Below, in pieces: positions 992 to 64,000 of a stretch of DNA of 64,000 nucleotides (position 1 is its first letter; each line of letters opens with the position of its first letter). The DNA comes from Luteococcus japonicus (GTDB lineage Bacteria; Actinomycetota; Actinomycetes; Propionibacteriales; Propionibacteriaceae). Location of the stretch: the NCBI RefSeq assembly GCF_003752415.1, contig NZ_RKHG01000001.1, positions 1,612,001-1,676,000 of the forward strand, in the 5' to 3' direction. The notes beneath the pieces are model-generated. The model was not told the origin of the DNA and made no database searches. It saw only the letters and a program-made list of their open reading frames with translations. A program made the translations under genes and the position numbers.

Positions 992-1125
992 CCAGATGGC
1001 GAACCCCCGATCGCCATCCACAACGGAACAGCAACCCCCCGAGTGTTGTTCCTGCATCGTGAGCCGCGACCCCCCGAGCGCGGCTCGCACCAAGAGGAAG
1101 GCCCCGGACCTGTCCGGGGCCTTTC
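992..1125 (+). ncRNA. 6C RNA (three C-loop hairpins plus terminator)
   Basis: A structured RNA matching the actinobacterial 6C motif, known for hairpins with cytosine runs in the loops (B11 of Mycobacterium is this type). Three hairpins are visible: 995-1002/1011-1018 with loop ACCCCCGA (5 C), 1025-1033/1044-1052 with loop ACCCCCCGAG (6 C, one G-U pair), and 1061-1068/1079-1086 with loop ACCCCCCGAG (6 C). A perfect terminator follows at 1098-1123. The classical description has two C-loops, so the third is an addition. 6C RNAs act by pairing of C-rich loops with G-rich sites. No ORF of note overlaps it. It converges on murJ. Confidence 0.85.
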
Positions 1126-1127
1126 TT
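1098..1127 (+). terminator. Terminator of 6C RNA, possibly bidirectional
   Basis: Perfect 11 bp stem AAGGCCCCGGA (1098-1108) / TCCGGGGCCTT (1113-1123) with loop CCTG and the tail TTTCTT. The A-rich 5' side means it could also stop transcription coming from murJ on the minus strand. Confidence 0.85.
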
Positions 1128-28468: not shown

Positions 28469-28662
28469 CGGCGAGGCCCGCCAGAACGCAAAGGGGCCCC
28501 CGCGCACCTGGAAGAGCTCACTTACCCTTGCTGTCTTTCGACCCTGGGGGAGTTGGGCGAGGTACCACCGCGCGGGGACCTTGGGAATACTCTAGCGCCC
28601 GCTGCGGCCCGTCGACCAATCCACTCGGCCTCCTGATGATCGGCCCGATCGGTGGGATTGAA

Positions 28663-51260: not shown

Positions 51261-52057
51261 GACAACCTCACCTTCTCTTCCAGTTCCTCCGGGGTGACCA
51301 GGGCCAGCTGGTCGAGCAGTGCTGCGGCGAAGCTCCCGGGCCCCTGGCTCGTGGCGACGGCATTGTCCGCGGCGACGCAGATCAGGGCGGTGGCGGCGCT
51401 GGCGGCCAGCAGCGGTTCGCTGACACCCGCGAAGCCCGCCATCAGGCCGCCCAGACTGCACCCCACGCCCGTCACCCGGGTCATCACCTCGTGGCCGTTG
51501 TGGATCCGGACCAGCCGTTCCCCGTCGGTGATGTGGTCGACTGCGCCGGAGACGGCCACCACGGCGCCGGTGCTCCGCGCCAGCTCGTGGGCGAGGTCCA
51601 GCACCTCCTGGGGGGCTGCGGTGGAGTCCGCGCCGCGGCCGCCGGCCCCACCCGACAGGCCGGAGATCTCGGAGGCATTGCCGCGGATGATCATCGGACG
51701 GTTGGCCAGTACCTCGACGGCGAAGGCGGTGCGCACCGGCAGGCCGCCGGCGGCCACCGGGTCCAACACCCACGGGGTCCCGGCGCTGTGGGCGGCCGCG
51801 GAGGCCACCCGCATCGCGTCGTAGGTCTCCTTGTAGGGGGTGCCGGTGTTGACCAGCACGCCGGAGGAGACGCCGGCGAAGACCCCGGCCTCCTCCGGGT
51901 TGTCCACCATGGCGGGCGCGGCACCGGCCGCCAGCAGGACATTCGCCGTCCACTGCGCCGCCACGATGTTGGTGAGGCACTGCACCAACGGGGTCTGGGC
52001 ACGCAGGGTGCGCAGGGAATCGGCAAGCTCTGCCGGGGAAATGACGGATGTGCTCAT
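51257..52057 (-). CDS. thiM: Hydroxyethylthiazole kinase ThiM
   Basis: 266 residues, ribokinase-like. It phosphorylates 4-methyl-5-(2-hydroxyethyl)thiazole salvaged for thiamine. VQCLTNIVAAQWTANVLLAA, GAAPAMVDNPEEAGVFAGV, VLDPVAAGG, IIRGNASEISGL and TRVTGVGCSLGGLMAGF are typical. First gene of the thi operon, 10-80 bases after the TPP riboswitch. Confidence 0.94.
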   Translation of the reverse strand: MSTSVISPAELADSLRTLRAQTPLVQCLTNIVAAQWTANVLLAAGAAPAMVDNPEEAGVFAGVSSGVLVNTGTPYKETYDAMRVASAAAHSAGTPWVLDPVAAGGLPVRTAFAVEVLANRPMIIRGNASEISGLSGGAGGRGADSTAAPQEVLDLAHELARSTGAVVAVSGAVDHITDGERLVRIHNGHEVMTRVTGVGCSLGGLMAGFAGVSEPLLAASAATALICVAADNAVATSQGPGSFAAALLDQLALVTPEELEEKVRLS

Positions 52058-52063
52058 TGAAGA

Positions 52064-52142
52064 GACGTCCCTTCGCTAGTCCGAACTAGATCAGGTTCGA
52101 CGGGTCTGTTCTCAGCCACCTGCGTGGCACCCCGCGTCCTTC
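52064..52142 (-). promoter_or_regulatory. TPP riboswitch (THI element)
   Basis: In the direction of thiM: CGCGGGGTGCCACGC, AGGTGGCTGAGAACAGACCC, GTCGAACCTGATCTAGTTCG and CTAGCGAAGGGA. GGGGTGCC, GGCTGAGA, ACCCGTCGAACCTGATC and GCGAAGGGA are the conserved THI-box segments. It senses thiamine pyrophosphate and most likely blocks translation of thiM, since no terminator follows. Confidence 0.95.
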
Positions 52143-52205
52143 TCGGAAGGCTATCGCACGTCGGGCCGCCAGTGGCTGCCGGGGGGCACAGCCACGGAGC
52201 CGTGG

Positions 52206-62840: not shown

Positions 62841-63263
62841 ATGAGCACCACGAATCCAGCCATCGGCCCCCACGAACCGTGGCGGATCGCCCTGGGCGAG
62901 CTCGACGAGAAGATGGGCGTCGAGGTGGTGGAGCAGGGCGTGGAGAAGGTTGTCGTGCGAATGCCGGTCGAGGGCAACCGTCAGTCCCTGGGGCTGTTGC
63001 ACGGAGGCGCCATGTTGAGCCTCGGTGAAACCGCCGGCTCCTGGGCCGCCCTGATCCATGCCAGCACGCACGGCATGAAGTGCGTCGGGGTGGACGTGGC
63101 CGCCACCCACCTGCGCTCGGCGCACGACGGTTTCGCGACGGCCACTGCGACCCCGGTGAAGCTCGGACGCACCCTGGACTGCCATCAGGTGGACATCACC
63201 GACGAACAGGGCCGACTGCTGAGCACCTTTCGGATCACCAATATGCTCATCACCCACGAATGA
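62841..63263 (+). CDS. paaI: PaaI/hotdog-fold thioesterase
   Basis: 140 residues. Hotdog fold with HGGAMLSLGETAGSWAALIH, the Glu in the position of the catalytic residue, and VGVDVAATHLRSAHDGFATA. PaaI-type enzymes hydrolyse ring-hydroxylated phenylacetyl-CoA or other acyl-CoA thioesters and may relieve stalled CoA. ATG 62841 has AAAGGG 5-6 bases upstream. Divergent from paaZ and unbroken, so it may now serve another pathway. Confidence 0.9.
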   Translation: MSTTNPAIGPHEPWRIALGELDEKMGVEVVEQGVEKVVVRMPVEGNRQSLGLLHGGAMLSLGETAGSWAALIHASTHGMKCVGVDVAATHLRSAHDGFATATATPVKLGRTLDCHQVDITDEQGRLLSTFRITNMLITHE

Positions 63264-63414
63264 AGCCCCCATGTCCCCCAAACGGGTGACACGAAAGCCC
63301 TTGTCTGGATGACCATGACACGCGATCAGGGGACATTAGAGGCCCTCTTCCTGTCCAGCACCTGAGCCTAATGGGCAGTTTCAAATCTTAAGTTGTGTTC
63401 ACTACTTAAATGCA
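63264..63414. other. AT-rich gap before the G-loop RNA
   Basis: About 150 bases without a gene. The distal half (63370-63414) is notably AT-rich for this genome; TTTCAA (63379-63384) and TACTTA (63403-63408) with an 18-base spacer are a possible promoter for the RNA that follows. Confidence in this promoter is low. Confidence 0.4.
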
Positions 63415-63673
63415 CGATTGTTGACTCATCACCGAAGATCGGATCGGGGGATCCGCTCTACGGAGGGGCGAACCGTTCGGGGGGAACGGGAAGCCGACGC
63501 CAGCAGATTCGGGGGAAGACGCTGGCACCGCCCACCAACTCGGGGGACGAGATGGGCAACCCGGCCACATCGGGGGATGGGGCCGAACGCATGACCCGTG
63601 GACGGATTCGGGGGAAGACGTCCACGCAGGACCCCGGGCCCGCCAGCACCAGCTGGCGGGCCCGAGGTCTTTT
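63415..63673 (+). ncRNA. Structured RNA with six UCGGGGG loops (unknown class)
   Basis: Six hairpins in a row: CGGAT/ATCCG (63440-63455), CCGTTC/GAACGG (63473-63489), GCCAGC/GCTGGC (63499-63526), GCCCA/TGGGC (63530-63557), CGGCC/GGCCG (63562-63585), CGTGGACG/CGTCCACG (63597-63626). Every loop contains UCGGGGG. Hairpins 3 and 6 share a TT-CGGGGG-AA top above an internal GA/GA purine pair motif. A strong terminator follows. No ORF fits. All six UCGGGGG loops are exact complements of CCCCCGA in the loops of the 6C RNA at 1 kb. I do not recognise this as a described family; the 5' end is uncertain. Confidence 0.75.
63636..63673 (+). terminator. Terminator of the G-loop RNA
   Basis: Perfect 12-bp stem GGGCCCGCCAGC (63636-63647) / GCTGGCGGGCCC (63652-63663) with loop ACCA, extended by GACC/GGTC outside, then TTTT (63670-63673). 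Confidence 0.88.
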
Positions 63674-63685
63674 CCCCCACAGGGG

Positions 63686-64000
63686 TCACCCAGCCTCCCC
63701 GAGCGCAGCTCCGAGCCTGCGAGGAGCGGTGCGCGCGAGGGCGCGAGGGTCCAAGGGGGGTCGTCCCCCGGCGAAGGCCTCGTTCAACTCAACGGCCCCG
63801 ATGCTGCCCAGTTCCCAACCGGCCCGCTCCAGCGCCTTCTGGGTGGCGGGCACGGGTCCGATGCCCATGATCGGCGCGGGCACGCCGGCTGCCGTCACCT
63901 GCACCACGCGGACGCGGGCCAACAGGTCGTACTTCTCGATGGCGGCCTTGCTGGCGACGATCACCGCGGAGGCCCCGTCTTGAGACTGGAGGCATTGCCG
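63686..64000 (-). pseudogene. Thiolase (paaE/paaJ type) fragment, truncated and frameshifted
   Basis: Part of an acetyl-CoA acetyltransferase: ASAVIVASKAAIEKYDLLAR, VRVVQVTAAGVPAPIMGIGP and VPATQKALERAGWELGSIGA, ending VELNEAFAG. Immediately after NEAFA the sequence becomes a repeat (63701-63770) and stops, so the C-terminal catalytic part (HP and C-x-G motifs) is missing. At the window edge GGC AAT GCC TCC AGT CTC AAG ACG shows a lost base (AAC GAC expected) that shifts frame. It belongs with the broken paa genes to its left; the N-terminal part is outside the window. Confidence 0.85.
63701..63770 (+). repeat. Copy C of the ~87-bp repeat, ending the thiolase
   Basis: Diverged copy sharing GAGCGCAG, CTGCGA, GGAGCGG and the 3' end GGGTCCAAGGGGGGTCGTCC with copy B. 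It replaces the C-terminal coding sequence of the thiolase and encodes its aberrant tail. Confidence 0.65.

Follow-up and report, generated by a model that had tools for sequence, protein, structure and literature searches.

Probable small RNAs with repeated GGGG-tipped hairpins recur in actinobacteria and are complementary to the loops of 6C-like RNAs

The 6C RNA is among the most widespread actinobacterial small RNAs (sRNAs). It occurs in several copies in some species (PMC9569102) and is reported to be essential in Mycobacterium tuberculosis (cited in PMC9569102), and the C-loops of M. tuberculosis 6C and M. marinum B11 have been reported to act by base-pairing (PMC12395582, citing PMC6486639). 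Bacterial sRNA sponges are also on record, among them the tRNA 3'ETS sponge and a Vibrio sponge (cited in PMC12395582). How 6C is switched off is not described in the open-licence papers searched.

The window analysed here, a 64,000-nt stretch of the Luteococcus japonicus genome, contains six hairpins that carry TCGGGGG on the + strand (starting at positions 63444, 63477, 63509, 63540, 63570 and 63608; Table 1). Folding gave energies of -11.7 to -18.7 kcal/mol, each hairpin being more stable than the majority of the other TCGGGG sites in the window (median -6.5 kcal/mol; n = 75, both strands, excluding the G array and the C-loop locus), and a 301-nt stretch containing the array folds at -157.6 kcal/mol (z = -6.2), with 0/100 shuffled sequences equally stable. 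Because TCGGGGG occurs 402 times in 1.664 Mb of this genome (both strands summed), about 0.02 copies per strand are expected in a 171-nt stretch in which six are seen. In an unbiased scan of 1.664 Mb for GGGGG within the loops of strong hairpins, the array at 63432-63673 ranked first and a second native array ranked second; the lower-ranked matches look like GC-rich coding repeats, bar the antisense of the C-loop locus. The six stems are unrelated to one another, and the tip UCGGGGG(G)A is common to all. An earlier note on this DNA had described a tandem-GA motif shared by two of the hairpins and a strong terminator closing the array. Both descriptions were borne out, the first by a 16-mer found in hairpins 3 and 6, and the second by a + strand stem at 63635-63664 that precedes TTTT, is the sole terminator-like stem in a terminator scan of the region and belongs to a pairing that reaches 63630-63669.

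The array has as neighbours a 4HBT thioesterase gene on one side (62841-63263, +) and on the other a thiolase gene, the 3' end of which is at 63686 (-). GC content drops to 35% at 63380-63439, an AT-rich dip that spans the candidate promoter. A strict scan of the region returned no sigma-70 promoter upstream of the array, and the TTCAAA/TACTTA pair is a possible array promoter, as judged by its sequence. The segment 63432-63673 (+) is very probably a stand-alone small RNA gene, about 245-260 nt long.

Table 1. Positions of the G-loop array, its candidate promoter, the other native arrays and the proposed partner RNA. Arrays 2 and 3 are given by their position in the genome, all other features by their position in the window.
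Feature	Position	Strand	Description
Candidate promoter	63380-63408	+	TTCAAA 63380-63385, 17-nt spacer, TACTTA 63403-63408; read from sequence
G-hairpin 1	63432-63463	+	CCGAAGATCGGA-TCGGGGG-ATCCGCTCTACGG
G-hairpin 2	63466-63494	+	GGCGAACCGT-TCGGGGGG-AACGGGAAGCC
G-hairpin 3	63499-63526	+	AGA/GAC internal loop (tandem G.A); GATTCGGGGGAAGACG core
G-hairpin 4	63530-63557	+	-11.7 kcal/mol, least stable of the six
G-hairpin 5	63562-63585	+	Inside the match of model R1
G-hairpin 6	63597-63626	+	GATTCGGGGGAAGACG core as in hairpin 3; internal loop similar to that of hairpin 3
Intrinsic terminator	63630-63673	+	Long GC-rich hairpin, then TTTT; within the R1 match
Native array 2	2,420,365	-	Five hairpins, of which one has UUGGGGGGGAA
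Native array 3	3,353,424	+	Five hairpins; flanked by genes for a universal stress protein and a DEAH-box helicase
C-loop RNA, proposed partner	992-1126	+	Three hairpins with loops ACCCCCGA / ACCCCCCGAG / ACCCCCCGAG; separate terminator

The whole heptamer UCGGGGG had been taken to be exposed in each of the six hairpins. The hairpins are real, but GGGG alone is predicted to be exposed, because the UC is mostly base-paired to GA in all six (unpaired probability 0.00-0.23 in the predicted ensemble), and the tip is modelled as, for the most part, a GGGG tetraloop closed by two constant pairs, U-A and C-G. When counted by eye over the three native arrays, UC precedes the G-run in 15 of the 16 G-hairpins and A follows it in all 16, as compared with 3.5% of G5-6 runs in general that have both; tip conservation in other genomes is partly by construction, because those arrays were located by the TCGGGGG pattern. 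Native copies contain at least four G4-5 tracts, as would suit an intra- or intermolecular G-quadruplex of the G5 tracts. Such a structure is highly improbable, in that every tract is held in its own hairpin tip, the shortest members have just three clear tracts, and the UC before and the A after the tract would be needless.

A pattern search located three G-loop arrays in the L. japonicus genome, counting the one at 63432-63673. Others are found in genus g19, which we take to be the Microlunatus group and in which one member is named Friedmanniella sp.: there are four loci in genome G179, two in G167 and an array in G111, while that of G183 has at least six hairpins and is interrupted by the contig end, and G019 and G121 have arrays of similar form. 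Schumannella has an array of four hairpins, and both Schumannella and Friedmanniella are among the matches listed in a contig pattern scan, which provides examples and not a distribution. In two genomes of genus g58, probably Streptomyces, orthologous arrays (L112 in G614, L114 in G762), made up of three to four hairpins and a terminator, adjoin the 3' side of a small gene with SHATGE/QHATGG-type repeats. G-loop RNAs follow a single plan, with two to at least six hairpins on unrelated stems, the UCGGGGGA tip, and the terminator last. No G-loop array was recognised in the same-genus genome G001 (79% complete), and blastn against relatives, plasmids and phages recovered no arrays, just short, mainly terminator-like matches.

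The majority of class-wide pattern matches were tandem repeats and were rejected. Viral contigs gave 31 pattern matches, mainly repeats with weak hairpins, and the dense acgtcTCGGGGG repeats of one viral contig (L336; IMG/VR 3300027841_000055) were classed as a simple repeat and not as a member. A locus with three TCGGGGG hairpins of -22 to -30 kcal/mol (L109; G619:C43:29464-29524, -) was set aside because of its ambiguous strand and its position shortly before a likely gene start; it might act as a leader element or, read on the opposite strand, be a C-loop RNA. Locus L073 (G129) was left out as doubtful.

The six loci of G179 and G167 have a common plan of two G-hairpins and a terminator, and a covariance model, R1, was built from these six Microlunatus-group loci only. 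In the structural alignment (A4), both-side pair changes numbered 10, against a mean of 3.3 in 500 shuffles, covariation was 0.317 versus 0.161 in shuffles (0/500 as high), and 88.9% of cells were paired, with 0/500 shuffles reaching any of the five measures. The signal was lost when partners were slid; hairpin B, which is sequence-conserved and badly aligned, contributes little to it. This covariation is supportive and not a formal test, because A4 was fitted to structure and its statistics ignore kinship. A mixed alignment that included antisense matches (A3) was dropped for pair counts, and A4 was used instead. The six loci come from two species and show compensatory changes.

The strongest evidence for the class is independent of the A4 statistics, and consists in the recovery of the native arrays by R1. 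Searched against 1.39 Mb of the L. japonicus genome on both strands, R1 gave its top three scores to the native arrays, in each case on the G strand, with 33.2, 29.3 and 22.1 bits (E = 1.4e-5, 1.3e-4 and 0.008). The first two of these are clear and the third alone is not, because unrelated scores reach 26.7 bits, the best among the weak matches of R1 in other genomes. The run over other genomes did not return the match in the window, which had probably dropped out at the first filter. The 29.3-bit match extends over 63560-63674 and comprises hairpin 5, hairpin 6 and the terminator. The window array thereby combines at least two UCGGGGGA hairpins and a terminator with a match to a model from another genus. 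Neither this array nor ten related G-array loci had Rfam matches above the gathering score, and the open-licence papers searched contained no G-loop counterpart of 6C, in agreement with the initial impression that no family of this form had been described. We are highly confident that these multi-copy G-loop sRNAs form a real and undescribed class.

The Rfam 6C model does not match the + strand of the array, whose loops are GGGG and not the C-rich hairpin loops of 6C, and scores 25 bits on the minus strand, below the cut-off of 47. The latter score would be in line with a six-C-loop relative of 6C being the true RNA and having been misread on the wrong strand. This reading has very little probability: the terminator and T-run are found at the 3' end and the AT-rich region at the 5' end of the + strand, the thiolase gene end at 63686 (-) leaves scarcely any room for a minus-strand promoter, it is the G strand of the three native arrays that R1 matches, and open AACCCCCGAG loops are seen in the C-loop RNAs here, in contrast to UCCCCCGA in the antisense of G arrays.

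Other RNAs in the window include a TPP riboswitch (52051-52144, -; 70.8 bits), a bacterial small SRP RNA (28488-28584, -; 59.1 bits) and, downstream of tRNA-Pro(CGG), the C-loop RNA at 992-1126. CCCCCGA is present in its loops at 1004-1010, 1036-1042 and 1071-1077. The earlier note held that the G-loop heptamers match CCCCCGA in three loops of a 6C RNA; the computed complementarity is indeed perfect over 7 nt in 3/3 loops, but the locus scores only 21.8 bits with Rfam 6C (gathering cut-off 47), and its three C-hairpins and separate terminator differ from the two-hairpin form of 6C, in which the second hairpin is the terminator; it is called 6C-like here. Most C-loops here have A, not U, opposite the conserved A that follows the G-run, which limits the complementarity to 7. 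Over 1.664 Mb of the genome, the locus is the sole C-hairpin array that is neither antisense to the G array nor coding-like, and a locus of the same-genus genome G001, at a different genomic place, has three C-hairpins, each with CCCCCGA in its loop. GA follows 12% of C5-6 runs in the L. japonicus genome, versus 3/3 C-loops here and 3/3 in G001. Since GA after the C-run is also seen in 6C loop 1 of lineages with no known G-array, CCCCCGA need not have co-evolved with the G tips; some 6C loops have no GA.

Genome G019 contains two paralogous two-hairpin 6C-like RNAs with AACCCCCGAG loops (L464 and L480; G019:C1:893730 and 1939288, +), the second hairpin being a terminator-like stem. Both are missed by the Rfam 6C model, which suggests that this family is under-covered by it; as a partner finder the model was set aside as weak in the family, several of its matches being plain terminators. 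G121 and G111 have strings that fit the same two-loop CCCCCGA plan. G-arrays co-occur with C-loop RNAs, or with matching strings, in G019, G121 and G111, but not in G179 and G167, where inspection by eye, limited to a spacing of 15-45 nt, picked out no RNA with a pair of CCCCCGA motifs, and where the one Rfam 6C candidate inspected (L275, in G179) has a single C-loop without GA. The lack of a CCCCCGA double-loop RNA among the finds in G179 and G167 (the latter genome about 100% complete), which hold the clearest G-loop family, is the main gap in the case for a 6C partner.

We tentatively suggest, from the complementarity of the loops, that the G-loop RNA may antagonise C-loop (6C or 6C-like) RNA by multivalent loop-loop pairing. 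The GGGG tips would nucleate on the CCCCCGA loops, the two closing pairs of the G tip would then open to give a duplex of up to 7 bp, and one G-loop RNA with 3-6 sites could titrate C-loop RNA, relieving mRNAs that C-loops repress. Computed energies are -14.5 to -15.7 kcal/mol for the G-loop/C-loop duplex and a cost of about 4-6 kcal/mol for opening the G tip; the predicted pairing of the first two heptamer bases in the free RNA speaks against this reading. Binding, titration and target derepression are put forward with the same reserve, by analogy with the published C-loop pairing of 6C and B11. More speculatively, Actinomycetia might harbour two opposed multi-copy RNA classes, C-loop RNAs (6C and relatives) and G-loop RNAs, each neutralising the other through multivalent loop-loop pairing in a CCCCCGA/UCGGGGG code that they share. 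A multi-copy RNA class with loops complementary to 6C makes the question of how 6C is switched off directly testable.

The G tips might instead pair directly with C-rich sites in messages, as multi-copy sRNAs with repeated single-stranded motifs do act on mRNAs, the Listeria LhrC sRNA and its mRNA targets being an example. Such trans-acting regulation of mRNAs appears improbable, as CCCCCGA was seen 18 times close to the 1,271 gene starts called, versus a mean of 19 for permuted heptamers (rank 19 of 42), a weak test because the starts are approximate.

The main rival to C-loop antagonism is a protein decoy, in which the UCGGGGGA tips, some with a tandem G.A loop, would capture several copies of an RNA-binding protein. 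The octamer sequence is kept although the U-A and C-G closing pairs could covary, each of the three native arrays has hairpins with an NGA/GAC-like internal loop, and the number of sites varies from 3 to at least 6, as in known decoys. We nevertheless consider a decoy somewhat unlikely, given that a decoy gives no reason to expect the complementarity to C-loops, that the internal loop is missing from some hairpins and that there is no candidate protein; a CsrA decoy is excluded, with CsrA absent from 8/8 genomes tested and three positive controls detected. Even if the partner were a protein, the sRNA class would still be undescribed, and its repeated recognition motif clear.

Among known systems, CsrB, RsmY and RsmZ, of which CsrB and RsmZ capture CsrA, resemble the arrays in having many hairpins, one repeated loop motif and a variable number of sites, and differ from them in that the arrays present GGGG within UCGGGGGA and not A(N)GGA, in genomes where CsrA was not found (8 genomes). 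C-loop antagonism by the arrays would be akin to the action of bacterial sRNA sponges in titrating another sRNA by base-pairing, as proposed here from complementarity and duplex energies only; to our knowledge, none of those sponges is built as an array of identical kissing loops. ANTAR hexaloops have a conserved A1 and G4, unlike the array tips, in which C-G and U-A pairs close GGGG and for which Rfam has no match. The ANTAR-target RNAs are likewise tandem hairpins in actinobacteria, and recruit a protein (PMC8164766). The closest resemblance in form is to 6C RNA (RF01066; B11), also an sRNA of actinobacteria in which homopolymer-tipped hairpins are repeated and a terminator is present; however, 6C has C-tips on two hairpins, the last of which is the terminator, whereas the array has G-tips on up to six hairpins and a separate terminator. 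By its loop sequence, the array is the complement of 6C rather than one of its members.
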